This document shows positions 3,601 through 20,809 of a stretch of DNA of 20,926 nucleotides, in pieces. The notes under the pieces were generated by a model, which had not been told where the DNA came from, ran no database searches, and worked only from the letters and a program-made list of their open reading frames with translations. The stretch is from positions 1 through 20,926 of the IMG/VR virus record IMGVR_UViG_3300031758_011105; one strand, written 5' to 3'. Within the stretch, counting starts at the first letter, position 1; each line of letters begins with the position of its first letter. The DNA is from a virus. Made by a program: the position numbers and the translations under genes.

Positions 3601-4200
3601 GGTATTGGTGGCGATACCACAACCTTTGATGGATGGGTGCTTTCCAACTGGGTAGAAATTGGCCCGGGAGTTACTGCCAATTCTAGCCTTTGGGGATATA
3701 ACTTTAAGTTTACTGGAAACAATACAGCCGGCGATGTTTATGGAGTATATGTTGACTATGCAGGAGCGACTGCTGTGAACAAAGCATACGGTATTTGGGT
3801 AAGAGACGCTGATGAGAATATATTAGATGGAAAGCTTACAATCAATGATCATCCTCATCTATACCTTAATGCTAGAGATCCAAACCAATTTAGTGGCAGT
3901 AATCAATTCATAAGCGGTAGATATGATGAGGCTAACTCTGATTATACATTTACTAGAGTAGGAGACGTTGTCACTTGTACTGGAAAAACTATTGCCGGTG
4001 GAAATCCAACAATCAATATTCCTCTTGGAACGATCGCTCCTAATCAGGCTTGGGGAGTAGCTTCATTTAATGTTGGAAATACCGCTTGTAAAGTAGGATA
4101 TAAAAACGCAACTCAAGTAGAAATAAAAAAGGCAGATGACTCAGCAATAGGCATCGGTGATGGCACCCAGTGGTTCACATTCTCGTACGTGATTGCATAA
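679..4200 (+). CDS. Large tail fibre: collagen-like triplets plus LVIVD-type beta-propeller
   Basis: A 1173-residue protein, read as a long tail fibre or receptor-binding protein. Residues 1-35 form a short head (MPIRVNLKEIFPSDSQEITV at the start) that probably anchors it to the baseplate. Residues 36-63 are nine Gly-X-Y triplets, a trimerising collagen-like rod. Residues ~64-410 are beta-rich with no recognisable domain. Residues ~415-805 hold five or six repeats of the form (V/I)xGxxxYV...(I/V)xDVSDPxNP, as in LVIVD beta-propeller repeats; IAIDVSDPTNPVVICSLGS is the clearest. Residues ~805-1050 look like a beta-helical shaft (GESLEVGNSINVGQGGVYID), followed by a compact beta-rich tip. It has only five cysteines, unlike the - strand fibres. 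ATG at 679 follows the previous stop by 2 nt with no Shine-Dalgarno. Fibre role is well supported; the ligand is unknown. Confidence 0.8.
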   Translation: MPIRVNLKEIFPSDSQEITVDKVNFNFNKLLELGVGDPGIQGLSGIQGPAGPTGLGGPAGLRGSTWFVDAGDPNTLTGFIDLIDNDLYLDSLSFDVWQYDLATDTWSLVTSISTLVNNYLSTTSSPFKRGIGLSSPSDDRFITFNRRGETYLETQLDVNLGTLNTSNNDTLFLNNFNEDVLSNSLTNFYFTANPGELFNSLLSIYSNHSEGAAVIQGRYHLEMGSLYENTEVSPSQVEMSDIRHNLKVKFLKEDVSLSTPLPSTNYWLNTARFSLSKLESTSIATIDQNGRFEFVVPKYNDEGLSTIQSEVTIRLGSAESLIEQSAVPPIVPDGISISSAVNGLIFGLKEGLENELTLPYSAGNADFALFDVSSGLNGFFFNDRLVQTAGNIEQIHTTPAEFVSKALFGVGYPGNANRYYTSIFSNGKYLIQTFAGPNDIYGGSNLTTSQGAIQLRALDSALTVLNTVTTDSEQNLLIPLAFDNHGHTISGVLQDIPATSVTDAKIAGKYIYLTRVRPSTPGSAPGVGINRNYNTFIIAEADSNGNSMVPVSIDTPGNSLQRVEIVGSIAYVINKRQAAAPWSTLNSTIIAIDVSDPTNPVVICSLGSPTSYGRNDDNYLDLEIVGERAFVSTFTESSNSIRIKQFDIHDPYNITYRPASNSGTVVVASGANEKPAQLKALGTWLFCSYDNDVYVYNIDVNNTQNLSLVSSFEVDTNIDITDIIVSDRYLYALGENKVSGIGMLATVDISDILNPFTVAIESRGEITAAGKMTMVGNKIYVSTSNGTGSYAATIGGISVFEVDGIVSANADLSMIRSNEIKVFKNAYVGESLEVGNSINVGQGGVYIDRGQGLAVDGPIKVRFSDPNMVLTSAPDPLTIIETKLEGITQSSPTGAPKIRLNRKWLDTVALADEILIDTTDLDSVDLQAVNCNRIRLSGTNDINGGWVTSQLIGATGVGESTTFHSDFVGHWQKFGIGGDTTTFDGWVLSNWVEIGPGVTANSSLWGYNFKFTGNNTAGDVYGVYVDYAGATAVNKAYGIWVRDADENILDGKLTINDHPHLYLNARDPNQFSGSNQFISGRYDEANSDYTFTRVGDVVTCTGKTIAGGNPTINIPLGTIAPNQAWGVASFNVGNTACKVGYKNATQVEIKKADDSAIGIGDGTQWFTFSYVIA
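784..867 (+). repeat. Collagen-like Gly-X-Y tract in the tail fibre
   Basis: Nine consecutive Gly-X-Y triplets (residues 36-63, beginning GDPGIQGLSGIQGPAG). Such tracts in phage fibres form trimeric rods. It joins the short N-terminal anchor to the beta-rich body. Confidence 0.85.
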
Positions 4201-4219: not shown

Positions 4220-4525
4220 ATGGGACTAAAGATAACTAGTGAAATTTACACAGACGGAGGCACAACATCTGATGCCTATGTAAACATCGAAACAGTAAAG
4301 GTTTCAAAGAGCGGCACAATAAATGCATTCTTAAACTTATACTTAAATGAGGAGGCTAGACTGGCTGATCCTACCAAGACTGTGACAAGTCAGCAGGTTT
4401 ATTCTAGAGTAGGAAAGACTGATGATTCAGCATTCACATTAACTGGTAATGTTTATGAGGTTGCCTACGCGCTAACTAAGGAAAAGCTAGAAGCATTTGG
4501 ACTCACAGTGATTGATTCGATCTAA
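4220..4525 (+). CDS. Small conserved-type phage protein after the fibre gene, function unknown
   Basis: A 101-residue protein beginning MGLKITSEIYTDGGTTSDAY, with alternating beta-like segments and no membrane segment. Proteins with this kind of start are familiar from tail-fibre neighbourhoods of large marine phages, but I cannot name a function. It starts 19 nt after the fibre stop, behind a pure A/T leader with no Shine-Dalgarno. Its TAA stop interlocks with the TAG stop of the opposing gene. It may be a fibre tip, a fibre chaperone or a minor baseplate subunit; this rests on position only. Confidence 0.65.
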   Translation: MGLKITSEIYTDGGTTSDAYVNIETVKVSKSGTINAFLNLYLNEEARLADPTKTVTSQQVYSRVGKTDDSAFTLTGNVYEVAYALTKEKLEAFGLTVIDSI

Positions 4526-5322
4526 TCGATCCATTGAGAAAGAGTAAAGGGCATCAGGTTCTCAACAACAAGTAGAGCCTGAAGCTCAGCGATGATGTTT
4601 GTCTCAAAGGCTATTCCCTTAGCAATCCCCTTGTTTAGCAAAATTGTGTCTTTCACGACATTTGCCGCAATTTTTTGATCGACTTCTTCAGTTATTGCAA
4701 AAACGACATTCTTCTTGTCCTTCATTCTATTTAAGGTCGGGTGATTCATCTCACTCAACTTTTCTTTGAGAGCGTTTTCCTTGATCTCATCAAGGACGAT
4801 CGTTTTTACTTTTCTAAATGAGACTCCATAATCCTTAGTAAAGTCTTCTTTCACGCACCAAATCGAGTATTGCTTGCTTCCGACCTCATTCATCACTATG
4901 AATATCTCCTGTTGTTCATGAATCATCTCATTCATATAAAAGATCTCCATTAAGTCAAAAGCGGCTAGCTGCTGATCCATGTATTCTAGGATCAGGTTTA
5001 AGAAGACGTAATTTGCATTTCTAAATATCTCAACGACCTCCGTCTTTCTCTCAAAGATCTGTCGTAATTCTTTCTTTATTGCATTCAATCTTTCGTTCTG
5101 CCAGATGGGATGAAGCTTTGAATCAAATAAGCTACCGTCTATCGCCAAGTTATTTAGGTTCAAGCTATGAAAGAAGAGCTCATAAAAGTAGCGAAGGTCT
5201 CCTTCTTCAAGATCCTTTCTGTACTTTTGGCTTGCTGCCAAGAGTATGTAGCTAAAGTATTCTGGATCTAGATAACTGCCCTTAGTTATCCATAGAGGAT
5301 CGAGTATCTGTTTTTCTTTCAA
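4522..5322 (-). CDS. Orphan reverse-strand gene of unknown function, TTG start
   Basis: A 266-residue protein, mostly alpha-helical by composition and rich in Glu, Lys, Leu and Phe, with no signal peptide, membrane helix or catalytic motif that I recognise. The first codon is TTG: an in-frame TAA lies two codons upstream (TAA GCT TTG) and the next in-frame ATG is about 100 codons in, so TTG is the only credible start for the full frame. It is the only - strand gene between two + strand structural blocks, diverges from the gene at 5417 and interlocks stops with the gene at 4220. This lone, inverted position suggests an independently expressed accessory gene, but no role can be assigned. Confidence 0.7.
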   Translation of the reverse strand: MKEKQILDPLWITKGSYLDPEYFSYILLAASQKYRKDLEEGDLRYFYELFFHSLNLNNLAIDGSLFDSKLHPIWQNERLNAIKKELRQIFERKTEVVEIFRNANYVFLNLILEYMDQQLAAFDLMEIFYMNEMIHEQQEIFIVMNEVGSKQYSIWCVKEDFTKDYGVSFRKVKTIVLDEIKENALKEKLSEMNHPTLNRMKDKKNVVFAITEEVDQKIAANVVKDTILLNKGIAKGIAFETNIIAELQALLVVENLMPFTLSQWID

Positions 5323-5416: not shown

Positions 5417-7561
5417 ATGATTAAGACTACTGTCAAATTACTGATAGATCCCCAGAAAAACTCGCTGACTTTTAGTAAGAATTTTAGGATATTTTCAACG
5501 ACTGAGCCTGTGACAGGAATCACTGAGTTCACAGACTTCCTAGAAGATCTTATGTTTACTTCACCAGAAGCGATCGATCTTACTAATCTCAAGAGATACT
5601 TTAGATATTCCAGGAACAAGTTAGACTGGTCACTATGGTATGAGGTCTCTCCAGGTAACTTAGGGGACGCTGCAGGAATCTATTTAGACGCAAACGATCA
5701 GTTCTATTTCGAGGTGAAATATGAGTACGACGACGGCACTTCTAATGAGATGCCGACCGTCATTCAGGTAAACGAAGTGAAACTAAGGTTTAAGCAGGCA
5801 GGAAACGTTGCGAATACCTACTGTCCTGTGACCCAATGTTCAGATGAGAAATGCACATCAATCATTACAAACAGGGATCCGAGTTTTAGGCCATACAACG
5901 TGGATAGCGCAATTGGACTCTATAATGAGCTCTCATTCTTTACTAATCAGCTATACGGCCATCAAGTAGTTTATTTTAGGACTGTTCCTGAATCAGATAG
6001 CGGTGACTATGTCTTTAAGGAATGGACTCTCTACAAAAACGTGGATCGCAAATGTATAAAGGTTTTAGTGCCAGGTAATACCTTTCCTGATAACGTGCCT
6101 AAATACACAGAATTTGGCATAGACTTTCAGATGCCATTTGAGATTCATGTAGATCACAAATACTTTCAATCAATCTTTGGAAGCGAGTCTGAGCCTAGGA
6201 AGAGAGACTTTCTCTACTTTCCTCTGCTTAATAGGATGTTTGAGATCCAGGGATCTTACCTCTTTCGCAGCTTCATGATGACTCCTAGTTATTGGAAGAT
6301 TCAGCTTAAGAAGTACAATCCAAACATCGATATGCTCCTTACTGATGAGACTCGTACCTTCTTGGATAACGTGATTCTCTCAGCAGAGCAGCTATTTGGA
6401 CCTGAAGTAGAGAAAGATATTAAGGACGGCACAATGCCTGAGCAGTATTCAAAGATAACAACGACCTTTGATCCTTCCCGAAAGGCGATTCATCCTGACA
6501 CAACGCTAAGACCTTTGAAATATACTTACAATTTTGCACCCTTAATAGAAAACTATTATGATCTTGGAGGAGTTCCCAGCACAGACATAACTGTTGCTTT
6601 GACTCCTGCTTCTCCAGTCACCTCAACTAGCCAATACGTTGCAAGTTTACCTAGCTTAGACAAGGTTCCGCCTCCTCAAAATGACGTGATACTTGCGTAT
6701 GAGGGTAGCGATCTCTATGCTACTTGGAAGAATGGAGGACTCATCACTAATGACAAGAACATTCGAGGAACCAGCATGAGGTACTGCAGAATAAGGGGAC
6801 CATTCGATTATATTCCAAATAACATCGGACAGTCTGAACCCAATAGGTACATTAGGATAGAGGCATATCGAGACATGAGATTCAATGATCAGCGGGACGT
6901 CCTAACTGATACGTTAGGTCCAGACACGATCACTACGTTTAGGGTAAGGGAGTCTGCTGTGATTTATAACGCCACTCCAAAGTTCAATACGACAAACATT
7001 AAAAACCTTTCGTTCACTTGTCTCTTTAACGTGCCTACATCTGCGGATATCGTTAGCTTTATCAATGGATACGACAATGAATTACAAGCAGGGCTAAGAA
7101 TAACAGGAAGCTTTAATCGTTACAACCTTTCTAATCCTGAGGGAGATCTTATCCTGTTGATTGAGATAAACGGTCAGAACAAGATATACACAATCAACAA
7201 CTTTATTAGCGGCACGTGGCACGCAATGGTGGTTTCCATATCTAACGAGTTCTTACAGATAGGAACCTATGTTTATCGAATCACTGAAGATCCAAGCGAC
7301 ATCATAAATCACAGTGATTTTAATAAGATATTTGGTGCGACATCATCCTTATCTCAAGAGACGTTTGATCTAGACCAAAACTATGTGTTACAGAACTCCC
7401 TGCTCCTGATCACGAACTTGCGTCTTTTCAACACCATGCTTAGGGAAGAAGAACACGAGTTTATACTAAGTCAGCAATTCCTAAAGGACGAGTCAATGTT
7501 GATCCTAATCGATAACTGCAGACCTCAAACGAACCTGCCGTACATCGCTAAAAACAGATAA
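5417..7561 (+). CDS. Large baseplate/tail structural protein with C-terminal LamG-like domain
   Basis: A 714-residue protein with no signal peptide or membrane segments. Residues ~1-130 are beta-rich (LDWSLWYEVSPGNLGDAAGI). A small cysteine cluster with C-x4-C-x4-C spacing lies near residues 136-148 (CPVTQCSDEKC) and could bind a metal or form a disulfide. The middle contains long amphipathic and Pro-rich stretches. Residues ~525-695 resemble a LamG/concanavalin-like jelly roll: the GTWHAMVVSI strand followed by LLITNLRLFNTMLREEE is the typical end of such domains. It heads a tight + strand run ending in tail-like proteins, and its stop is 5 nt before the next ATG. The likely role is a baseplate wedge or adhesin-like tail component with carbohydrate-binding potential. 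I do not recognise a specific T4 homologue. Confidence 0.65.
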   Translation: MIKTTVKLLIDPQKNSLTFSKNFRIFSTTEPVTGITEFTDFLEDLMFTSPEAIDLTNLKRYFRYSRNKLDWSLWYEVSPGNLGDAAGIYLDANDQFYFEVKYEYDDGTSNEMPTVIQVNEVKLRFKQAGNVANTYCPVTQCSDEKCTSIITNRDPSFRPYNVDSAIGLYNELSFFTNQLYGHQVVYFRTVPESDSGDYVFKEWTLYKNVDRKCIKVLVPGNTFPDNVPKYTEFGIDFQMPFEIHVDHKYFQSIFGSESEPRKRDFLYFPLLNRMFEIQGSYLFRSFMMTPSYWKIQLKKYNPNIDMLLTDETRTFLDNVILSAEQLFGPEVEKDIKDGTMPEQYSKITTTFDPSRKAIHPDTTLRPLKYTYNFAPLIENYYDLGGVPSTDITVALTPASPVTSTSQYVASLPSLDKVPPPQNDVILAYEGSDLYATWKNGGLITNDKNIRGTSMRYCRIRGPFDYIPNNIGQSEPNRYIRIEAYRDMRFNDQRDVLTDTLGPDTITTFRVRESAVIYNATPKFNTTNIKNLSFTCLFNVPTSADIVSFINGYDNELQAGLRITGSFNRYNLSNPEGDLILLIEINGQNKIYTINNFISGTWHAMVVSISNEFLQIGTYVYRITEDPSDIINHSDFNKIFGATSSLSQETFDLDQNYVLQNSLLLITNLRLFNTMLREEEHEFILSQQFLKDESMLILIDNCRPQTNLPYIAKNR

Positions 7562-10646: not shown

Positions 10647-10668
10647 GTTTGTAGTAAAACATACAAAC
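10647..10668 (+). terminator. Perfect 7-bp inverted repeat in the gap before the sulfation cassette
   Basis: GTTTGTA and TACAAAC flank an 8-nt loop (GTAAAACA) and are followed by TATTTTCTA. It lies between the tail-tube-like stop (10632) and the APS kinase-like ATG (10678). The stem is A/T-rich with two G-C pairs and the T run is short, so it is a weak terminator at best. An operator or a leader hairpin controlling the cassette is equally possible. Confidence 0.35.
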
Positions 10669-10677
10669 TATTTTCTA

Positions 10678-11115
10678 ATGATAATTCATTTTATAGGTCA
10701 GCCTGGTGCTGGAAAGTCTACCCTTGCGGCAGAGATCGCAAAAATCGTTCCTAATCCCATGATAATCGATGGAGATGAGATGCGAGAAATATTCAAAAAT
10801 AAGGATTATAGCCAAGAGGGACGTCGTCGAAACCTTACTAATGCTTACAATATCGCTAGATTCTTGGACGCTAAGGGGTTTACTCCTATTCTTGCACTAG
10901 TTAGCCCTTATCTAGATCTTAGAGAAGAGCTAAAGGAATCTGCAGAAACAGTTGAGATATTCTTACAAACGAGCGACATTAGAGGAAGAGAAAACTTTTT
11001 CGTCAGCGATTATGAAGAACCTGTGAATGATTACCTTCCAATTGATACTAAGGCAAGCGAGTTAGACTGCCTACGAATCATTAAGGCTCACCTAATATTG
11101 AGAGGATGCATCTAG
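10678..11115 (+). CDS. cysC: Adenylylsulfate (APS) kinase-like protein
   Basis: APS kinase phosphorylates APS with ATP to give PAPS, the sulfuryl donor. The 145-residue protein has the P-loop GQPGAGKST at residues 7-15, the family motif DGDEMREIF at 31-39 (compare DGDxxRxxL), a helix with GRRRNLTNAYNIARFL matching the APS-binding region, and ALVSPYLDLREEL matching the SPYxxxR segment. A YEEPVNDYLPIDT stretch near the end matches the family's YExPxxPxxxIDT. It is shorter than typical APS kinases (about 200 residues), mainly in the C-terminal half, so the lid may be reduced. It opens the cassette and overlaps the next gene by 10 nt. APS kinase family membership is likely; activity is inferred. 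Confidence 0.8.
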   Translation: MIIHFIGQPGAGKSTLAAEIAKIVPNPMIIDGDEMREIFKNKDYSQEGRRRNLTNAYNIARFLDAKGFTPILALVSPYLDLREELKESAETVEIFLQTSDIRGRENFFVSDYEEPVNDYLPIDTKASELDCLRIIKAHLILRGCI

Positions 11116-11549
11116 TCAAGATACGATATAATCATGATGCTGGTGATTCAGGCCTCTTTTGGCGAGTCATCATAAACGGTGTTGAACACCTAGCTAGCGA
11201 TCTTGAGATTCATGGAGCGGCGTACACCACTCAGGATGAAGTCGAGGGAGTCGGAAAGAAGTATCACATCACGTGTGAGGTTGATTCCATTCACTGGGAC
11301 AAAAACAAGATAGTTCTGGTTCGAGAAAAGAATAGAGTCTCTAAACTTAGACACATCTTAAAATCAATAACTTACCGTTTCTATTCCTCTACGATAACTT
11401 CGTTAATCGCCGCATTTCTTACCGGGAGCATCACGATAGGTTTTTCGATAGGGACAGCTGATTTCTTTATCAAGATATTTACATACTACATACACGAAAG
11501 GATTTGGTACAAGATACCATTTGGACTAGAAAAAATAAAGAAAAAATGA
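11106..11549 (+). CDS. Two-part protein with a C-terminal DUF2061-type membrane domain
   Basis: A 147-residue protein. Residues ~1-72 are a small soluble beta domain (HLVKIRYNHDAGDSGLFWRV, then KKYHITCEVDSIHW) of a type found alone in other phages. Residues ~82-145 match the DUF2061 pattern: LRHILKSITYRFYSSTITS, a hydrophobic segment LIAAFLTGSITIGFSIGTAD, then IKIFTYYIHERIWYKIPFG. DUF2061 proteins are two-helix inner-membrane proteins that often adjoin sulfate-activation genes, and here the gene sits between an APS kinase and a nucleotidyltransferase. The start overlaps the previous gene by 10 nt, and the stop overlaps the next start as ATGA. It may be a membrane anchor or a sulfate/PAPS-linked factor; its biochemical role is unknown. 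Confidence 0.75.
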   Translation: MHLVKIRYNHDAGDSGLFWRVIINGVEHLASDLEIHGAAYTTQDEVEGVGKKYHITCEVDSIHWDKNKIVLVREKNRVSKLRHILKSITYRFYSSTITSLIAAFLTGSITIGFSIGTADFFIKIFTYYIHERIWYKIPFGLEKIKKK

Positions 11550-11950
11550 CGTATAACATGTTTATTGGGAGATATCAGTCTCCTCACAAGGGTCACATGA
11601 CCATCTTTAACGAATACTTAGGCAAGGGCAAGCCCATCTTAATTGCTATTCGAGATGTTGAGCCAGACGATAAAAATCCTCTCTCTGCAGCAGAAGTATC
11701 TGAGATTTGGCTGGAAATCTATAAAGGAGACCCATTAGTAAAAATCATCATCATACCTGATATTGCTAGCGTAAATTACGGAAGAGGTGTCGGATATGAG
11801 GTAAAGGAGATCCAAGTAGACTCGCAGATCGCGAACATCTCAGCAACAGAGATTCGTCGACAGATACACGCAGGTGAGACTGGATGGCACGATCTAGTGG
11901 ATCCAAAGGGACATGAAATACTTGAAAAACTACTAAAAAGCAAGAAATAA
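11546..11950 (+). CDS. HxGH-class nucleotidyltransferase
   Basis: A 134-residue member of the cytidylyltransferase-like superfamily, which transfers a nucleotidyl group from NTP. It shows GRYQSPHKGH at residues 8-17 (HxGH motif), a mid-protein DDKNPLSAAE and ISATEIR at 98-104 (the ISxTxxR phosphate-binding motif). GRxQPxHxGH proteins closest by eye are NMN adenylyltransferases. A longer frame from 11504 exists, but the ATGA overlap with the previous gene and the position of the first strand fix the start at 11546. Context with an APS kinase and sulfotransferase raises the possibility of a role in sulfate activation (ATP sulfurylase belongs to the same superfamily), but the substrate cannot be read from the sequence. 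Confidence 0.75.
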   Translation: MTYNMFIGRYQSPHKGHMTIFNEYLGKGKPILIAIRDVEPDDKNPLSAAEVSEIWLEIYKGDPLVKIIIIPDIASVNYGRGVGYEVKEIQVDSQIANISATEIRRQIHAGETGWHDLVDPKGHEILEKLLKSKK

Positions 11951-11952
11951 AA

Positions 11953-12837
11953 ATGGAAAAATACTCAATCTTTCACCTAGAAGGTGGACTCGGCAAACAC
12001 ATCGCAGCAACAGCTGTTGCAAAGTGCATCAAAAATAATCATCCGGATAGGGAGCTCATCGTAGTATGTGCGTATCCAGAAGTCTTCTTAAACCTTCCAT
12101 TCGTGGACAGAGTCTATCGAATTGGAATGACTCCATACTTTTATCAAGACTATGTTAAGGGCAAGGATACCATGATATTCAAACATGAGCCATACTTTAC
12201 GAATGAACACATACACCAGGAACTTCCGCTAGTCGAGAATTGGTGTAAGTTATATCAGTTAGACTATTCTGGAGAGACTCCTGAGCTTCTCTTCAATGTT
12301 AGACAGAGACAGTATGGATTTAGAAAATGGTCCAGAACTAAACCCATCATGGTGCTTCAAACAAACGGCGGCCCTCTCAAGGATCAGCCTTATCCCTATT
12401 CCTGGACTAGAGACATGCCGCATGACATAGCAGAGAAAATAGTTAGGACTTTTTCAAATGACTATCACATCTTACAGGTGTGTCGTCTTCCTGAACAAGC
12501 GATCGAAGGAGCTGAGGCAGTCATTGAACCTATGTCTAACATGGAATTTCTTTCAATGCTTCTCTTTTCATCAAAGAGAGTCTTGATAGATTCGTGCCTT
12601 CAGCATGCAGCTGCGGCTTTGGGAGCACCTTCTACTGTTCTTTGGGTTGGAACGAGTCCTAAGACCTTTGGTTGGTCTTTACATAACAATATAACAGCAA
12701 CACTACCTGACACAGTTAAGCTACCAGACAGTTATCTGTTTGATTACAACTTCCATGGAACCTTACATGAGTGTCCTCTACTTGACTTGAACGTGTTTGA
12801 TGAATCAGACGTATTAAACTCAATTGCCTTAACCTAA
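11953..12837 (+). CDS. GT9-like (heptosyltransferase-type) glycosyltransferase
   Basis: A 294-residue protein with the two-Rossmann layout of GT-B enzymes. The N-terminus has HLEGGLGKHIAATAVAKCI (residues 8-26), matching the GxGD/GLGxH nucleotide-side loop of ADP-heptose:LPS transferases, and a first domain up to ~160. The C-terminal half has LIDSCLQHAAAALGAPSTVL (211-230), the counterpart of the DSGPxHxAAALGxP motif, followed by LWVGTSP. The usual GxxH proton-acceptor context is less clear. The donor may be a nucleotide sugar other than ADP-heptose. It starts 2 nt after the previous stop and overlaps the next ATG by one base. The likely role is glycosylation of virion or cell-surface glycans; the acceptor is unknown. 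Confidence 0.75.
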   Translation: MEKYSIFHLEGGLGKHIAATAVAKCIKNNHPDRELIVVCAYPEVFLNLPFVDRVYRIGMTPYFYQDYVKGKDTMIFKHEPYFTNEHIHQELPLVENWCKLYQLDYSGETPELLFNVRQRQYGFRKWSRTKPIMVLQTNGGPLKDQPYPYSWTRDMPHDIAEKIVRTFSNDYHILQVCRLPEQAIEGAEAVIEPMSNMEFLSMLLFSSKRVLIDSCLQHAAAALGAPSTVLWVGTSPKTFGWSLHNNITATLPDTVKLPDSYLFDYNFHGTLHECPLLDLNVFDESDVLNSIALT

Positions 12838-13472
12838 TGGATTTTACCTATCGTCCAGTAAACATTAATGAGTACTTTGACAAGATACTCTATATCAACA
12901 TGGATAAGGACGTTTCTCGTGATCATGGCATGCTCAAGCAGTTTGAAAAGTTTGGAATCACGAACTTTCAAAGGATCGCAGGAAGTGACTTGATATCTCT
13001 ACCTCAACCGATAAGTTATCGTAATTTCATAAAGGACGATGAAAAGTACATCAAGGGCCAGCTAGGTTGTAGACAATCTCATCTCAATGCTATTCAGTAT
13101 GCTAAGAATCAAGGATATCAGCGAGTCTTAATACTTGAAGACGACGTTGAATTCCTGATCGACCCTAGTGAATTACTCACAATAAACCAGGAGATCCTTA
13201 ATGATTGGGACATGCTCTATTTCGGTGGGTTGATTGAACCCTTCTTTAGGAATCAGATAGTCTGTGCTCATGCGTATGGAGTGACTGCAAACTTATACGA
13301 CGATATCTTAGAGATGGGAGCTCATTCAGGAATGGAAATAGACAATTTCTACGCAAAGGTGATACAGCACATGAGTTACAATCATACTAACATAGGCAAG
13401 TACAGGATCAGGATAATCCAGCCTTTCAATCAAGTAATACAAAACAAAAGTTACTCATCAAACATAATATGA
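12837..13472 (+). CDS. GT25-like glycosyltransferase (LPS biosynthesis type)
   Basis: A 211-residue protein with the layout of family 25 transferases: YFDKILYINMDKDVSR near residues 13-28 (the YVINLxxRxxR-type opening), then GQLGCRQSHLNAIQYAKN (~74-91), YQRVLILEDDVEF (~95-107, with the EDD metal/nucleotide motif) and DWDMLYFGG (~123). GT25 enzymes add galactose or related sugars to lipooligosaccharides or proteins. At 211 residues it is close to the short bacterial and phage forms. The start overlaps the previous TAA as TAATG and the stop overlaps the next ATG as ATGA, so it is translated coupled to both. Sugar and acceptor are unknown. Confidence 0.8.
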   Translation: MDFTYRPVNINEYFDKILYINMDKDVSRDHGMLKQFEKFGITNFQRIAGSDLISLPQPISYRNFIKDDEKYIKGQLGCRQSHLNAIQYAKNQGYQRVLILEDDVEFLIDPSELLTINQEILNDWDMLYFGGLIEPFFRNQIVCAHAYGVTANLYDDILEMGAHSGMEIDNFYAKVIQHMSYNHTNIGKYRIRIIQPFNQVIQNKSYSSNII

Positions 13473-14284
13473 AACAGATATTCTTTCAATCGTCCCTGCC
13501 AAGAGCAGGATCAACTCTCTTACAAAACGTCCTGGGCCAGAATCCTGACTTCTATGTCACGCCCACTTCGGGAGTCCTGGAGTTAGTGTATGCGGCCAGA
13601 AACAATTACACTAATTCTCCTGAGTTTAAGGCACAGGACTCATCCCTGATGAGAGCAGGATTTACTCGATTCTGTCACGACGGGGTACATGGATTCTTCA
13701 ACGCGATCACCGACCGACCGTATGTCATGGATAAGAGTAGAGGTTGGGGAATCCACTATGGATTTCTTAATGAGTTCTATCCAGACCCCAAGATCGTCTG
13801 CATGGTCAGGGACCTTCGCGGAATCTTTGCCTCAATGGAGAAGAACTTTCGCAAGAACCAGCACATGGATTCTGGAATAGTCGATCACTCAAAGATGACT
13901 GGTACAACCACTGAGAAGAGGATTGACGTATGGGCACAGGGCCAGCCAGTAGGTCTTGCGATAGAGAGGCTCTATCAGATATTCAAGGAGGGAATCGACA
14001 AGAAGATGCTTTTTGTCAAGTACGAAGACCTGACTGAAAATCCCCAAAGGGAAATGAAAAGGATCTATCAGTACTTGGGAGTTCCTGAATTCTCTCATGA
14101 CTTTGATAACGTTGAACAGATAACCGCTGAAGACGACTCAGTATACGGTATCTATGGCGACCATAAGATTCGCACAAAGATCTCGCCACTCAAGCCCGAT
14201 TACAAGGATGTGCTTGGAGTAAACGTCTGTAACTGGATCAAGACCAATTACAAGTGGTTCTACGATGAGTTTAAGTATTATTAA
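13469..14284 (+). CDS. PAPS-dependent sulfotransferase
   Basis: A 271-residue member of the sulfotransferase family, which moves a sulfuryl group from PAPS to a hydroxyl or amine of an acceptor. The 5'-phosphosulfate loop is SSLPRAGSTLL (residues 8-18) and the 3'-phosphate motif is CMVRDLRGIFASM (~111-123). A downstream VKYEDLTENPQREMKRIYQY (~180-200) is the family's usual (Y/R)YEDLxxxP segment. Length is typical of bacterial carbohydrate or protein sulfotransferases. It is the last gene of the cassette and interlocks stops with the opposing gene. Its base composition stands out: rows from 13501 to 13980 hold 45-53% G+C against 35-38% in sampled neighbouring rows, suggesting recent or separate acquisition. 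Family call is secure; the acceptor is unknown. Confidence 0.88.
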   Translation: MKQIFFQSSLPRAGSTLLQNVLGQNPDFYVTPTSGVLELVYAARNNYTNSPEFKAQDSSLMRAGFTRFCHDGVHGFFNAITDRPYVMDKSRGWGIHYGFLNEFYPDPKIVCMVRDLRGIFASMEKNFRKNQHMDSGIVDHSKMTGTTTEKRIDVWAQGQPVGLAIERLYQIFKEGIDKKMLFVKYEDLTENPQREMKRIYQYLGVPEFSHDFDNVEQITAEDDSVYGIYGDHKIRTKISPLKPDYKDVLGVNVCNWIKTNYKWFYDEFKYY

Positions 14285-15088: not shown

Positions 15089-16447
15089 TTATGCTATGTA
15101 AAGCCTTCCTCCCTCAGCCGTGCACGAGTAAACTGTTCCTGCAGGTAACGGTAAAGCGGAATCGTCAGGAAGATCCTTTAACCAGAGACAGTTTGCATGC
15201 AGAGTACAGTTGGCTACTGCGCAAATATTTGAGCCGACTATTGTTGCACAGGCAAAGCTGCAAGTATTATTACACTGTCCTCCAAGAATTGCTCCATATA
15301 ATGAGTCAGCGAAGTTTCCGTATCCTCCACTGACTGTTGAATAGTCTCCACACGTTGTATTAAAAGCTCCTCCGCTGATCACTGAAGTTGTACTACAAGA
15401 ACAGTTGCATAACCCTCCACCAACGAATGACAATTCTTTAGTCACCGTATTGAAACAACCTCCACCAATGATTGAACAACTTGCACAAGACCCTAATGTA
15501 TTGTCAACTCCTCCGACTACTGCTGACCCGCAACCTCGGACTATGTTATTCGCTCCGCCGCTCACTGTTGAACACTGGGCACACGCTGCATTATCATATC
15601 CTCCACTGACTGTTGAATAGCTTCCGCTCGCAACATTACCGTAACCTCCACTGACTGTTGAGTAATAAGCGGAAGAAGTATTGAAATAACCTCCGCTGAC
15701 CGTTGAATAGCCTCCGCTCGCAGTATTGCTGAATCCTCCTCCAACAGTTGATGGATTATACCCAGACGCAGTGTTGTTTATTCCACCACCAATTGTTGCA
15801 CCGTTGTAACCAGACGCAGTGTTATTGAATCCTCCGCCGATCACTGAATACTGACACTGTATTGAGTTAAACGCTCCTCCGCCGATTACTGAATAGTATC
15901 CGCTTGTCGTGTTAGCGACTCCGCCGGAAATTGTCGCTCCTGCACCGGTCGCTGAATTACCGTATCCACCAGAGACAGTCGCTGCGAGATTGGCTGCTGA
16001 GTTTCCATAACCTCCACTAGATGTTGAATAGTCAGATAGCGCCGTGTTGTATGCACCTCCACCGACCACTGAATAGTACCCGCTTGAGGTGTTTCCATAT
16101 CCTCCGGAAACCGTAGAGAGATCAGAGCTTACAGTATTATTATATCCTCCCGAGACAGTCGCTCCATACCCACTAGCACTATTAGCATAGCCGAAGGCTG
16201 TTGAGTATGGGCCAGACGCATTATTACTTGTGCATATCCTATAAGTTGAATAGGTGCCTGAACCAGTATCAACTACTCCTCCGCCACCTGCTCCTTCGAT
16301 CACAGTGACTGCTCCTGTGTTGTCCATTTTTGAAAGGGCACCAGCATTATCCAAGTCAAAACCAAAGAAAAAGCTGTTTGCTGGAATCTGTGCGTAGTCT
16401 ACTGTTGAAAAAGCAATCCTAGGTATCTGTATTCCCGATCCGTACAT
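15089..16447 (-). CDS. YadA-head-like repeat tail fibre, paralogue 3 (452 residues)
   Basis: Residues 1-~70 are a head and entry cap (GVVDTGSGTYSTYRI). Residues ~74-408 are about 21 copies of a 15-residue repeat with consensus GG-x-x-N-T-A-S-G-x-Y-S-T-V-S, as in the head of trimeric autotransporter adhesins (YadA/Hep_Hag type), predicting a left-handed parallel beta-roll trimer. A short end module (HANCLWLKDLPDD) and a 30-residue tip close the protein. It has 19 cysteines, 17 of them after residue 285. The start is ATG, no signal peptide is present, and there is a GATAAATA box 19 nt upstream. Two paralogues lie directly upstream. Fibre role is strongly supported; the receptor is unknown. Confidence 0.8.
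   Translation of the reverse strand: MYGSGIQIPRIAFSTVDYAQIPANSFFFGFDLDNAGALSKMDNTGAVTVIEGAGGGGVVDTGSGTYSTYRICTSNNASGPYSTAFGYANSASGYGATVSGGYNNTVSSDLSTVSGGYGNTSSGYYSVVGGGAYNTALSDYSTSSGGYGNSAANLAATVSGGYGNSATGAGATISGGVANTTSGYYSVIGGGAFNSIQCQYSVIGGGFNNTASGYNGATIGGGINNTASGYNPSTVGGGFSNTASGGYSTVSGGYFNTSSAYYSTVSGGYGNVASGSYSTVSGGYDNAACAQCSTVSGGANNIVRGCGSAVVGGVDNTLGSCASCSIIGGGCFNTVTKELSFVGGGLCNCSCSTTSVISGGAFNTTCGDYSTVSGGYGNFADSLYGAILGGQCNNTCSFACATIVGSNICAVANCTLHANCLWLKDLPDDSALPLPAGTVYSCTAEGGRLYIA
15224..16228 (-). repeat. About 21 tandem 45-bp (15-residue) repeats
   Basis: The conserved Asn recurs at residues 104, 119, 134, 149, 164, 179, 194 and 209, exactly 15 apart, with occasional 16- and 17-residue units afterwards (225, 241, 256, 271, 286, 301, 316, 333). 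Copies are diverged at the DNA level. Confidence 0.9.
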
Positions 16448-16466
16448 CTATTAAAATCTTTTTTAT

Positions 16467-16474
16467 TATTTATC
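16467..16474 (-). promoter_or_regulatory. Late-promoter-like box GATAAATA for the 452-residue fibre
   Basis: On the - strand this reads GATAAATA, 7 of 8 matches to the T4 late box, and ends 19 nt before the ATG at 16447. It overlaps the stop of the upstream fibre gene. It may let the third fibre be transcribed separately. Confidence 0.35.
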
Positions 16475-18261
16475 TATGGAACGAATTTAACTGTGCAGCT
16501 GTCTGCTGAATCATACCATAATGCACCGGATGGAAGTCCTGCACTAGAGCTTGGTAGGTTCACGATGGAGAGCTGGTTCACGAATGTTGCTGCCGCTCTG
16601 TTTGATGTGAGTCCACATCCAAGCACGATAGCATAATCATGACATGCAGTATTGCATTGGCCTCCAACAAGCGTCGACACGCATTGTGCTGAGTTGTACT
16701 GGCCGCTGACTATGCCTGCAGATGCGCCTGACGCAGTATTACGGTATCCTCCGCTAATGGTTGAACTAGCTCCACTCGCAACATTACAGTATCCTCCGCT
16801 AATTGCTGCGTACGGTTGAGTCGATGAGTTTCCTAACCCTCCGCCGACTGTTGAATCAGATCCACTTGCAGTGTTTTGTCTCCCCCCACTAACAGTCGCA
16901 GTGTTGGCACTAGCAGTATTTACCGTCCCTCCCCCAACGACTGATCTTGCTCCAGAAGAAACGTTCGAGTGCCCTCCAGCAATTACGTTACATGAAGAAG
17001 TGATGCAGTTGTTATATCCACCGCCTATTGCTGAATACGAACCTACTGCCGAGATATTATTAAGATATCCTCCACTTATTGTTGAGCAAACAGCGGCTGT
17101 TGCGTTTCTTCTACCCCCGCTCACAGTCGCTGAATAACCTGAAGCAGTATTACAACAACCTCCACTAACCACTGAATAGTCACTGGATGCCGTGTTTCGT
17201 CGACCTCCGCTTACTGTTGCGAAACCGCTAGTTGCATTGTTACAAAAACCTCCTACAATAACTGAGTGATTTCCGCTTGCTATATTGATTGAACCGTTTC
17301 CGACTATCGAATAGCTGCCGCTTGCTGTATTATTACTACCTCCTCCAACGAGTGCGAAATTTCCTGAAGCTGAGTTATTACTGCCATTTATAACAGTGGA
17401 GTAAATTGCAGTGACTGAGTTTAAATTTCCGCTACTTACCAGTGACGATATTGAACATGCGAAGTTTGATGCGCCTCCGCTAATTATAGAAAAATATCCA
17501 GATGCAGTGTTACATCGTCCTCCTCCTATTGCTACGAAGCTGTTATTTGAGCTATTGAAGTAACCTCCACTGATCGTTGATCCACAGCCGGAAACGTAAT
17601 TTTTGCCTCCGCCGCCGATGACTGATAATGGCGATGTTGCTTGATTACAGTAACCTCCGCCAATTGTTGAATAAGTGCAGGATGAAACGTTGCACAATCC
17701 TCCTCCCAACGTTGATACATATCCACTAGACGTATTATTGGATCCTCCACTTATCACTGACGCTGAACCGCATGCAGAGTTTAAACATCCTCCACCAACA
17801 ACTGATGCGGCTCCATTCACTGAGTTAGCGCAGCCTCCGCCAATAGTTGGATATGTTGAAGCACCATCACTTACGTTATTGCACCCACCTGAAATAGTCG
17901 AACCTAATCCGAATCCGTTATTCCCTCGACCTCCACCAACAGTTGATGTGTAGCCTGCAGTATTATTACAACCTCCACTGATCGTAGAGTATTGACTACA
18001 TGAGTTATTACATCTGCCTAATGCAGTCGAATAATTGGAACTCGCAGTATTACAATTATTTATCCTAAGGCTTGAGTTTGGTCCGCTCCCCACATCGATT
18101 ACTCCTCCTCCTCCGCCTAACGGATACTCGTTACCTGAGTCGTCAAGTCGATACCAACAACCATTTGATTTTACGTAGATCTTACTGTAGCCTGCATCCG
18201 GAGTAGCTGGTGTACTACATACTGTCTTGTGTTGAGAAATGCTTAAAATCTTCTTGCTCAT
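16474..18261 (-). CDS. YadA-head-like repeat tail fibre, paralogue 2 (595 residues)
   Basis: Residues 1-~55 are a short head (YSKIYVKSNGCWYRLDDSGN) ending in a Gly run. A cap shared with both paralogues follows (GVIDVGSGPNSSLRI). Residues ~68-550 hold about 32 copies of the 15-residue GG-x-x-N-T-A-S-G-x-Y-S repeat, the longest array of the three. The tip is only ~45 residues (LSIVNLPSSSAGLPSGALWY). It has 28 cysteines, many at the one or two positions before the conserved Asn (for example 70, 84, 98, 127, 144, 159, 190, 205, 250, 340, 370, 492, 536). There is no signal peptide. It starts 16 nt after the upstream fibre stop, behind an A/T leader without a clear promoter box, so it is probably co-transcribed with that gene. 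Confidence 0.8.
   Translation of the reverse strand: MSKKILSISQHKTVCSTPATPDAGYSKIYVKSNGCWYRLDDSGNEYPLGGGGGVIDVGSGPNSSLRINNCNTASSNYSTALGRCNNSCSQYSTISGGCNNTAGYTSTVGGGRGNNGFGLGSTISGGCNNVSDGASTYPTIGGGCANSVNGAASVVGGGCLNSACGSASVISGGSNNTSSGYVSTLGGGLCNVSSCTYSTIGGGYCNQATSPLSVIGGGGKNYVSGCGSTISGGYFNSSNNSFVAIGGGRCNTASGYFSIISGGASNFACSISSLVSSGNLNSVTAIYSTVINGSNNSASGNFALVGGGSNNTASGSYSIVGNGSINIASGNHSVIVGGFCNNATSGFATVSGGRRNTASSDYSVVSGGCCNTASGYSATVSGGRRNATAAVCSTISGGYLNNISAVGSYSAIGGGYNNCITSSCNVIAGGHSNVSSGARSVVGGGTVNTASANTATVSGGRQNTASGSDSTVGGGLGNSSTQPYAAISGGYCNVASGASSTISGGYRNTASGASAGIVSGQYNSAQCVSTLVGGQCNTACHDYAIVLGCGLTSNRAAATFVNQLSIVNLPSSSAGLPSGALWYDSADSCTVKFVP
16612..18060 (-). repeat. About 32 tandem 45-bp (15-residue) repeats
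   Basis: Repeat units of GG-x-(x/C)-N-(T/N/S)-(A/S)-S-G-x-x-(S/A)-(T/V)-(V/I) run from residue ~68 to ~550 with few insertions. The coding periodicity also creates long spurious frames on the + strand. Confidence 0.9.
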
Positions 18262-18277
18262 CTAAGTTATATTCTTT

Positions 18278-20809
18278 TTAATAGTTCTTGTTTACGACAA
18301 ATATGTTAGAATAGATGTTATTCGTCGCGTTCGTCGATCCCCATTGGGCAGTAACCGTTAGCGTGTTTGAGGCAGTAGTATCAAAGAGAGTGTTTTCAAC
18401 TCCTCCCAAGTCAGCGCCAAGTATGTCGAATCCAGAAGAAGAGAATGAAAACATTCCGTTTGCCGCGATGGAAGCAACTCCTGCTGCTCCAATGGCTCTT
18501 ATTGTAAACTGTACTTGTAGGGACCAAAATCTACCGGATAGTGCGGGTAGAGATACTGTGCCGGTGTCTGCAAGTAATACTGAGCCTGATTTTATTCTAA
18601 TTCTAACAGTCTCACCATTTGCCGACGAGATCACTCCCCCGACTGAAACTCCAAAGCTGTCGCCGACCGCGAAGCCATTCGCAGGTACAGTAAGAGTCCC
18701 AACACCAGTTGAGATCACCGAGGTTTCAGTAATCGTTCCAGTTATCGGCGTGCTTGAAGTGGTCTGTGCAAAGATCCCTCCCTGATATCTAACTTTTACT
18801 TGGCCAGTCACAGTGTCTCTTACTAGCGATGCGGTGTTTGAAGTCGCTGACTCTGGTGTGTTGTATAGGTTCAAGTAATTAGCATGAAAGGTATTATCAC
18901 ATACTGAGGTAATGTTACAGCCAAATGCACCAGAGTTAAAGTTTGACATTGTGTTACAATATCCTCCAAGAACAGCTGAGCCGTATCCGCTAGCAACGTT
19001 CATGAATCCTCCACCTACTGTTGAATCAGTATTTGATGCTGTGTTATTTCTACCACCAAGTATTGCTGAATTCAGGCCGGTCACTGTGTTAACTTTTCCT
19101 CCACCTATTGTTGAACAATCTGCATTTGCTATGTTGCAATAACCTCCACTAATCGTTGATCTATTACATGATGAAATATTTCTAAATCCTCCGCCGATCA
19201 CTGAATCTGTTCCTGAAGATAGGTTTATGTAACCTCCACCAATTACTGAGTAATTTCCTGAACTAGTATTACAATATCCTGCACCAATGAATGATCCACT
19301 ACAGGATGAAGTATTGCAGAATCCTCCAGCCAACGCTGAGAAAAATCCACTAGATAGATTGCAAGTTCCTCCGGTGATAACTGAATAGCATCCAGATGAA
19401 GTATTATATCTTCCTCCACCGACTGTTGAAAAGCAATCTGATGCTGTGTTACAACAGCCTCCATCGACTACTGAAAACGCTCCAGACGCTGTGTTACAAT
19501 ATCCTCCACTAATCGTTGACTGTGCACCCAATGCCGTATTTAAGTATCCTCCACCGACGGCTGAACCGTATGAACTTGAAGTGTTGATTCTTCCTCCGCT
19601 GATTACTGAGTAATTTCCTGAGCTAGTATTACAACAGCCACTGCCGATGAATGATCCATATCCAGATGAAGTATTGCCGCATCCTCCACTGACCGCTGAC
19701 CAACAGGCAGTTGCCGAGTTTGACTGACCTCCACTTACTGTTGAGCAATCTGAGCTTGCGGTATTACATAATCCTCCTCCGACAAAGCTTTCGTTTCCGT
19801 TAGAAATGTTTGAGTTTCCTCCAGCAACTGCTGATTGATAGCCGCTTGCTGTGTTACCTAACCCTCCGCCGACTGTCGAATAGTATGCAGATGCAGTATT
19901 TAAGTATCCGCCACTCACAGTTGAATAAGGTCCGCTTGCAGTATTAAGATTATTGATTCTAATACTGGACCCTGTTCCTGCGCCCACTTGAATGACTGCT
20001 GGATTTGGTACATTTTGCCAGTCTGGACCAACATATGCTAGTACTTCTCCTGGATTTGGAGAAAGGATAGTGACATCAGATAAGTCATCTAGCGCTCCAA
20101 CGTTTGAGTCAATTTGTACCGTTACTTTACTGTTTATCACGTCGTCTAGCACAGTAAGTGTTGAGTTCGATCCAGTTATAAAGTCGACCTTTCCTCTAGC
20201 TGCCACTAAGACTCCGTCCTTTTCAATCTGTAGAGGCGAGGTCACCGCCTCTGCAGTTAGGGTGTTTAGGGAATCGTTATAGGTCCAGGTAACAGACGCT
20301 GAGTTTTGAATTAATGCTGCAACTCTATCGTCCACTCTCTCGTTCGTGAAATAGAGCCTAGACCCTTCTACAAGATCAGTAGTGCTAAATGGTACTAGCG
20401 TGACTCCTAGAGTCAGGGAGTCTGCTCCATCATTGTATGACTTAGTAATTCCAGTCCCAGCAAGAAGTAGAGCATTGACTCGGTCGTCAACTCTTTCGTT
20501 AGTAAAGTAGAGACGACTTCCCTCAACTAGGTTAGTCGTGCTAAATGGAGAAAGACTAACGTCGCCTCGTAATATTCCCGGAGAGATCTGAGTCCACGTT
20601 AATCCTGTGCCGTTTACTATGCTAGAAGGATTAAGCAAACCTAGAGATGAGATGTTAACGAATGAAAGGTTTCCCACTCCATCAGTCGAAATGAGCTGGC
20701 CAGCTAATCCGTCAGTTAGAGGCAAGGAATACTCTCCATCAACTGTGATCTTCTTTCCAGTTATCTCGCCGTCTGCATATAGATCTGAATAAACTTTCTT
20801 TGATGCCAT
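18278..20809 (-). CDS. YadA-head-like repeat tail fibre, paralogue 1 (843 residues)
   Basis: The largest of the three fibres. Residues 1-88 are a beta-rich head with GLAGQLISTDGVGNLSFVN, typical of phage fibre shafts. Residues 89-111 and 141-163 are a duplicated (T/S)TxLVEGSRLYFTNERVDD unit that is common in phage fibres. Residues ~190-288 end in the shared cap (AVIQVGAGTGSSIRI). About 23-24 copies of the 15-residue repeat fill ~289-640, then an end module (HANYLNLYNTPE) at ~642 and a separate 165-residue beta-rich domain (679-843; GTLTVPANGFAVGDSF, FTIRAIGAAGVASIAANG). That last domain is the likely receptor-binding tip. All 21 cysteines lie in the repeat region and its end module. It starts 8 nt after the preceding - strand stop. 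Confidence 0.82.
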   Translation of the reverse strand: MASKKVYSDLYADGEITGKKITVDGEYSLPLTDGLAGQLISTDGVGNLSFVNISSLGLLNPSSIVNGTGLTWTQISPGILRGDVSLSPFSTTNLVEGSRLYFTNERVDDRVNALLLAGTGITKSYNDGADSLTLGVTLVPFSTTDLVEGSRLYFTNERVDDRVAALIQNSASVTWTYNDSLNTLTAEAVTSPLQIEKDGVLVAARGKVDFITGSNSTLTVLDDVINSKVTVQIDSNVGALDDLSDVTILSPNPGEVLAYVGPDWQNVPNPAVIQVGAGTGSSIRINNLNTASGPYSTVSGGYLNTASAYYSTVGGGLGNTASGYQSAVAGGNSNISNGNESFVGGGLCNTASSDCSTVSGGQSNSATACWSAVSGGCGNTSSGYGSFIGSGCCNTSSGNYSVISGGRINTSSSYGSAVGGGYLNTALGAQSTISGGYCNTASGAFSVVDGGCCNTASDCFSTVGGGRYNTSSGCYSVITGGTCNLSSGFFSALAGGFCNTSSCSGSFIGAGYCNTSSGNYSVIGGGYINLSSGTDSVIGGGFRNISSCNRSTISGGYCNIANADCSTIGGGKVNTVTGLNSAILGGRNNTASNTDSTVGGGFMNVASGYGSAVLGGYCNTMSNFNSGAFGCNITSVCDNTFHANYLNLYNTPESATSNTASLVRDTVTGQVKVRYQGGIFAQTTSSTPITGTITETSVISTGVGTLTVPANGFAVGDSFGVSVGGVISSANGETVRIRIKSGSVLLADTGTVSLPALSGRFWSLQVQFTIRAIGAAGVASIAANGMFSFSSSGFDILGADLGGVENTLFDTTASNTLTVTAQWGSTNATNNIYSNIFVVNKNY
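18890..19945 (-). repeat. About 23-24 tandem 45-bp (15-residue) repeats
   Basis: Repeats of the same GG-x-x-N-T-A-S-G type as in the two downstream paralogues, including cysteine pairs such as SGCCNTSSGN and GGCCNTASDC. Boundaries are approximate. Confidence 0.88.
20321..20545 (-). repeat. Duplicated LVEGSRLYFTNERVDD unit in the fibre head
   Basis: Two near-identical 23-residue units (coded by 20477-20545 and 20321-20389) start 52 residues apart. Their DNA differs at many third positions, so the duplication is old or the protein sequence is under selection. Confidence 0.85.

Follow-up and report, generated by a model that had tools for sequence, protein, structure and literature searches.

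A phage gene block that probably makes and uses PAPS for sulfation, with a candidate compact ATP sulfurylase

The six-gene block

The window considered here, meaning the whole 20.9-kb stretch of DNA that was analysed, is an IMG/VR virus fragment from an uncultivated aquatic phage. Its + strand carries six consecutive open reading frames, which encode an APS-kinase-like P-loop kinase of 145 amino acids (10678..11115), a small DUF2061 membrane protein with an N-terminal extension (11106..11549), a compact HxGH adenylyltransferase of 134 amino acids (11546..11950), a GT9-like (heptosyltransferase-like) glycosyltransferase (11953..12837), a GT25-like glycosyltransferase (12837..13472), and a predicted PAPS-dependent sulfotransferase (13469..14284). 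From 5' to 3', the junctions are a 10-bp overlap, ATGA, a 2-nt gap, TAATG, and ATGA, and reading of the sequence has borne out the original prediction as to the six frames, their coordinates and strand, and their tight spacing. The family assignments made at that time hold for five of the products, which exceed their Pfam cut-offs (APS_kinase, DUF2061, CTP_transf_like, Glyco_transf_25, and Sulfotransfer_3), but the Glyco_transf_9 match of the remaining one falls below.

Two relatives (L006 and L007) contain the identical six genes in identical order, alongside the same upstream structural-type genes; consequently, the block is not a chance arrangement. A hairpin (10647..10668, + strand; RNA fold of -8.3 kcal/mol, z -2.25) lies in the 45-nt gap ahead of the cassette. 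At the equivalent position, L006 and another relative, L008, have inverted repeats of differing sequence. A scan for promoters and terminators was uninformative, with fewer promoter-like matches than in shuffled sequences.

The sulfotransferase and the glycosyltransferases

The product of the last gene matches Pfam Sulfotransfer_3 with an E of 7e-22 (79.2 bits, above a cut-off of 27). In an alignment of about 84 relatives, the 5'-PSB motif PRAGST (P11, R12, and G14-S15-T16), K89 and R91 of the DKSRGW segment, the 3'-PB residues R114...S122, and H232 are all kept. Because the 5'-PSB, the 3'-PB, K89, and H232 have been retained, the predicted use of PAPS by this enzyme is well supported. The GT25-like protein matches Pfam Glyco_transf_25 (E 2e-9, 38.1 bits against a cut-off of 24) as well as the glucosyltransferase family phrog_2835 (E 7e-17). 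For the GT9-like protein, the family match is weak (E 0.015, 15.0 bits against 22, across a 42-residue stretch only), and its assignment also draws on its place near the sulfotransferase.

Given this neighbourhood, the product would be a sulfated glycan, carried on a fibre, on another part of the virion, or on the host surface. Alternatively, the sulfotransferase might sulfate protein directly, at tyrosine or another fibre residue, with the glycosyltransferases acting separately. The solved structures nearest to it in sequence are tyrosylprotein sulfotransferases (TPST1/2), to which it is weakly similar, and fibre genes are close by; in addition, Bacteroidota relatives of the upstream genes have, as read by eye, tail-collar-like genes and a hydroxylase-like one in their vicinity. 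However, in a pairwise alignment judged by eye, the region of the TPST catalytic Glu (GEETR) is not conserved, and in the viral survey described below a GT9-like gene usually accompanies the sulfotransferase. Direct sulfation of protein thus seems unlikely, and a glycan is preferred as the acceptor.

Two modules across viral contigs

At least 237 relatives of the sulfotransferase are present in viral contigs. The surroundings of 83 loci were compared, these being the best 80 together with a few others, including the window itself (L001) and one contig that appears twice (L003/L005). Near the sulfotransferase there was a GT9-like gene in 57 of the 83 loci, a kinase gene in 29, and DUF2061 and HxGH genes in 27 each. 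Because these counts differ, the block is best regarded as two modules, one consisting of the GT9-like and sulfotransferase genes and the other, a donor module, of the kinase, DUF2061, and HxGH genes. The co-occurrence of kinase and sulfotransferase in related viral contigs is therefore real, and, together with the conserved motifs, it supports the earlier idea that the block is a sulfation cassette which provides its own PAPS and whose genes are probably translated together. The same survey contradicts the view that a sulfotransferase beside its donor-making kinase is unusual, since the combination is widespread in viral contigs. It also qualifies the notion of one six-gene cassette: the gene order is genuine, but the kinase/DUF2061/HxGH and GT9/GT25/sulfotransferase portions are separable.

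This separability is seen directly in several contigs. In L008, L010, and L011, the GT9, GT25, and sulfotransferase genes occupy the equivalent syntenic place without the donor module, and a search of the whole 176-kb record of L008 gave no HxGH match. In L003/L005, a contig that closely resembles the window in other respects, 919 bp have been deleted, so that the beginning of the kinase runs into the latter half of the HxGH protein and both DUF2061 and the HxGH motif are lost, while the sulfotransferase is retained. The destruction of the donor module in L003/L005 and its absence from L008 suggest that it is dispensable or replaceable, perhaps by host PAPS. In the other direction, a sulfotransferase of the window's family was absent from the fetched flanks in 58 of 80 viral loci with the donor triad, where flanks were limited and contigs fragmentary. 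Whole records of triad loci without a nearby sulfotransferase contained some PF13469 protein in 8 of 30 cases, and a relaxed regular expression for other sulfotransferases near triads produced a few diverged candidates, two of which were confirmed by Pfam and two of which were given no family.

Viral APS kinase has already been described among the sulfur-cycling genes of viromes, and has been interpreted as serving sulfate assimilation (PMC7940616). By this usual reading of viral cysC, the phage genes would be an auxiliary metabolic set that feeds PAPS to the host for the synthesis of cysteine. However, the window has neither cysH nor a sulfite reductase gene, and the set adjoins a sulfotransferase and glycosyltransferases, so that a role in assimilation appears improbable and sulfation remains the favoured purpose.

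The APS-kinase-like protein and DUF2061

The kinase matches Pfam APS_kinase above the cut-off (E 1e-11), and when its profile is compared with the PDB, APS kinases are at the top (E 9e-34) and account for every strong sequence match to a solved structure. Its AlphaFold2 model (pLDDT 95.6) has an APS kinase as the best structural match (Z 21.2, rmsd 1.7, 145 residues aligned); APS kinases as a whole give Z values of 17-21 across about 130-145 residues, and gluconate kinase is next at 17.0. Among 88 relatives, the P-loop, DGDxxR, and the Arg/Asn motifs of the APS site (R49 and N52) are kept, so that the P-loop and PAPS-loop residues, on which the original prediction depended, persist in relatives of both enzymes. 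The lid, however, reads RGRENFF where the canonical motif is KGLYKKA, and the replacement of this motif marks the protein as a divergent relative of APS kinases. It reaches 45.0 bits with TIGR00455, for which the cut-off is 138.7, and a tblastn search of annotated phages with the kinase alone gave no match. From its sequence and its modelled fold, the phage protein resembles an APS kinase and probably works like one, though it is not a canonical member of the family.

The DUF2061 protein matches its Pfam family at E 9e-14 (52.0 bits, cut-off 23.1). In two ordinary flavobacteria (L244 and L246), a DUF2061 gene lies directly upstream of cysC and overlaps it, followed by cysD and cysN; none was found in the other 18 such flavobacterial cysC regions. 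In four Bacteroidota loci (L169-L172), DUF2061 is fused to the N-terminus of an APS kinase, which is followed by an HxGH gene, and by sequence inspection a sulfotransferase-like gene adjoins in each; the one in L169 matches Pfam below the threshold. Judged by these fusions and neighbourhoods, DUF2061 is part of the sulfate-activation unit.

The HxGH protein as a candidate compact ATP sulfurylase

The third protein of the block had been described as an HxGH nucleotidyltransferase, and this placement within the superfamily stands: the HxGH motif, the adenylyltransferase fold, and the ISxTxxR motif are all present. Pfam CTP_transf_like is matched at E 1e-4, just over the cut-off. Across an alignment of 43 sequences, H14, G16, H17, and R104 are invariant, and S99 and T101 are found in at least 90%. 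The predicted model (pLDDT 93.2) has the NMNAT/PPAT fold (Z of about 14). With 134 amino acids, compared with about 155-170 for NMNAT/PPAT, the protein is some 30 residues shorter, and this difference indicates that much of the substrate-side insert of those enzymes is missing. The description is generic, however, and comparative evidence now favours a more specific identity, that of a compact ATP sulfurylase.

The first line of this evidence is partnership. The HxGH gene is accompanied by an APS kinase gene in 78 of the 80 viral loci and in 54 of the 62 cellular ones. The two are also fused, both as kinase-HxGH (L107, L153, L174, L180, L183, L198, L217, and L219) and as HxGH-kinase (L202, L211, L213, L220, and L227-L229), and the fusions of both orders come from different lineages. 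In the archaeal fusion L213, the partner of the HxGH domain is a genuine ApsK (TIGR00455 E 9e-63, over the cut-off). In a tree of ApsK, the HxGH partners span several branches, which include those of phage and Marinimicrobia, Bacteroidota DUF2061 fusions, Acidobacteria-type fusions, and archaeal fusions, besides the flavobacterial clade discussed below.

A second line comes from operons of sulfate assimilation. In three Nitrospirae loci (L182, L194, and L199), the genes for sulfite reductase/TusA, a CysH-type protein, and the HxGH protein follow one another directly, and in L182, NIR_SIR, TusA, and APS reductase were confirmed with Pfam and NCBIfam. Other cellular neighbours are a CysQ-type gene in nine loci (one of these confirmed over the cut-off), metK, and sulfotransferase genes. 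Furthermore, 50 HxGH-bearing genomes show a gap in the pathway: all 50 contain APS kinase, 7 contain Sat, 7 a strong PF01507 (CysD/CysH-type) match, and 40 neither. Since most of these are metagenome-assembled or single-cell genomes, a single gene absence means little, though the pattern is consistent.

The final line is replacement. ApsK was found over the cut-off in 102 of 246 genomes sampled from the order Flavobacteriales. Where HxGH is lacking, CysD is present in 94 of these 94 genomes; where HxGH is present, all 8 lack both CysD and Sat. The slot after cysC is often occupied by cysD in ordinary flavobacteria (L231, L244, and L246) and by the HxGH gene in the members that carry it. All eight HxGH genomes form one clade in the ApsK tree, and consequently a Fisher p of 5e-12 overstates their independence, there having been one replacement event and not eight.

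Some findings count against a sulfurylase. The HxGH-bearing Nitrospirae genomes also carry Sat, and the nearest folds and sequences to the HxGH protein are NMN and pantetheine-phosphate adenylyltransferases, not Sat. No NCBIfam or Pfam model of Sat/MET3 (TIGR00339-type, ~380 amino acids) is matched by the 134-residue protein. An hhalign comparison with Sat gave a probability of 70%, which is suggestive only; the PDB matches listed by Foldseek for the model hold no ATP sulfurylase, and homology to the Sat catalytic domain is therefore unproven. Taken together, partnership, operon, pathway gap, and replacement make a compact ATP sulfurylase the most likely identity of the HxGH protein, its sulfate adenylyltransferase activity being deduced from genomic context and from the substitution for CysD.

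It has also been considered that the kinase/HxGH pair might make a donor similar to PAPS but with a different group or nucleotide, the last enzyme then transferring that group. An analogy is offered by Campylobacter, whose phosphoramidate pathway has a CysC-like kinase for cytidine diphosphoramidate, and both the altered lid of the phage kinase and the many triads with no recognisable sulfotransferase nearby could be explained in this way. However, the cellular neighbours of the HxGH family include canonical ApsK, CysH, and CysQ, and the sulfotransferase has retained its PAPS motifs; a different donor is thus very doubtful. NadR-like NAD salvage, in which the kinase would be of nicotinamide-riboside type, the HxGH protein an NMN adenylyltransferase, and DUF2061 a membrane helper, all unrelated to the sulfotransferase, takes its appeal from the kinase-plus-NMNAT layout of NadR and from NMNAT and PPAT being the nearest named families and folds of the HxGH protein (the only name offered by NCBIfam and PDB searches is NMN adenylyltransferase, at weak scores well under the cut-offs). 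It is, however, highly improbable, and was discarded in view of what the kinase is and of the genes that accompany HxGH in cells, since the kinase matches APS kinases above all others in sequence and fold, cellular HxGH relatives adjoin or are fused to bona fide ApsK, adjoin CysH, and replace CysD, and the protein, besides being shorter than NMNATs, scores 26.9 bits against 181.2 with TIGR01527 and 33.2 against 127 with PRK01153.

A proposed sulfation pathway

These results have led to a model in which the block is, quite probably, a sulfation operon of two modules, the first making PAPS from sulfate and ATP and the second using it on a glycan. In the first module (10678-11950), the HxGH protein would adenylylate sulfate with ATP to yield APS, and the kinase would phosphorylate APS at the 3'-OH to yield PAPS. 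DUF2061 would assist, and either membrane anchoring of the pathway or supply of sulfate would fit. In the second (11953-14284), the GT9-like and GT25-like transferases would build or extend a glycan, probably the acceptor, onto which the sulfotransferase would place sulfate with PAPS as donor. The likely purpose would be sulfation in hosts that make little PAPS, resulting in altered phage fibres or an altered host surface.

Two types of ATP sulfurylase are recognised, Sat and CysDN. We think it rather likely that the HxGH protein founds a third, compact class (~135 amino acids), unrelated to CysDN and far smaller than Sat, which is distributed among phages, marine Bacteroidota, Marinimicrobia, Nitrospirae, Acidobacteria, and DPANN archaea, and that in phages it travels with APS kinase and DUF2061 as a mobile set that supplies PAPS for sulfation. 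The activation of sulfate is central to the sulfur cycle. If this view is correct, a small third enzyme would account for the step that seems to be missing from many streamlined marine bacteria and archaea, viral cysC genes would be read as serving sulfation rather than sulfur assimilation, and enzymologists would gain a minimal ATP sulfurylase. Phages, in turn, would seem to carry an entire sulfation pathway, from inorganic sulfate to the finished modification.

Relation to known systems

A literature search that covered few subscription papers, and so does not prove novelty, found no description of a compact ATP sulfurylase, of a phage set with one, or of DUF2061 in sulfur metabolism. The proposed donor module resembles PAPS synthase (Sat-APS kinase; human PAPSS1/2 and Aquifex 2gks) in placing two successive activities, the adenylylation of sulfate and the 3'-phosphorylation of APS, within a single unit or fusion. 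It differs in that the HxGH protein has an NMNAT/PPAT-like fold, lacks the rest of Sat, and falls below every family model, and in the altered lid of its kinase. With the flavobacterial CysD-CysN-CysC system it shares the slot behind cysC, the CysQ neighbourhood, and, in some genomes, DUF2061 upstream of cysC, but one small protein stands in place of CysD (PP-loop fold) and CysN (a GTPase).

Among phages, the phrog_10255 'kinase' of the Stenotrophomonas/Xanthomonas phages DLP6, Suzuki, and AhaSv unites APS-kinase-like and HxGH domains in a single protein; it is fused and diverged, unlike the window's genes, and the annotation of DLP6 shows no adjoining sulfotransferase or DUF2061. Phage sulfotransferases have been reported previously, with a function described as unclear (PMC10580990). 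In cyanophage S-SCSM1, the sulfotransferase is flanked by core T4-like genes, with no donor module annotated next to it, and the enzymes of S-SCSM1, S-SKS1, and S-SRM01 are about 28-30% identical to that of the window.

Proposed donor module and its surroundings

One contig that is closely related to the window, and is represented twice (L003 and L005), carries a 919-bp in-frame deletion that fuses the start of the kinase gene to the end of the HxGH adenylyltransferase-fold gene (L003 8001-8348, equivalent to L005 6136-6483). A hairpin occupies the gap preceding the cassette (window 10647-10668), and an inverted repeat is kept at the corresponding site in two relatives, L006 (~5178-5201) and L008 (~6454-6477), despite differing sequence. 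The hairpin may be a regulatory element.

In Chitinophagaceae MAGs (L169-L171), the donor module is accompanied by tail-collar-like, hydroxylase-like, and sulfotransferase-like genes, and sulfation of collar-type proteins is possible there. At another Bacteroidota locus (L172 2967-7888), inspection by eye places the DUF2061-ApsK fusion and HxGH after genes resembling those of sphingolipid-type synthesis (acyltransferase-like and SDR-like) and also after a sulfotransferase-like gene; judged from its sequence, this region could be a sulfolipid operon.

Other genes of the window

The window also encodes a 1173-aa fibre-like protein (679-4200, + strand), which has weak tail-fibre PHROG matches and a short collagen-like stretch near its N-terminal start. 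A gene with a weak, sub-cut-off gasdermin match (4522-5322, - strand; Pfam E 0.004) is flanked by fibre-like and structural-type genes. Three large proteins (15089-20809, - strand) consist of short repeats of the GGGxxNTASGxxSTVSGG type that resemble YadA-type heads, and at further viral loci, such as L106, comparable repeat proteins again lie close to the donor module.
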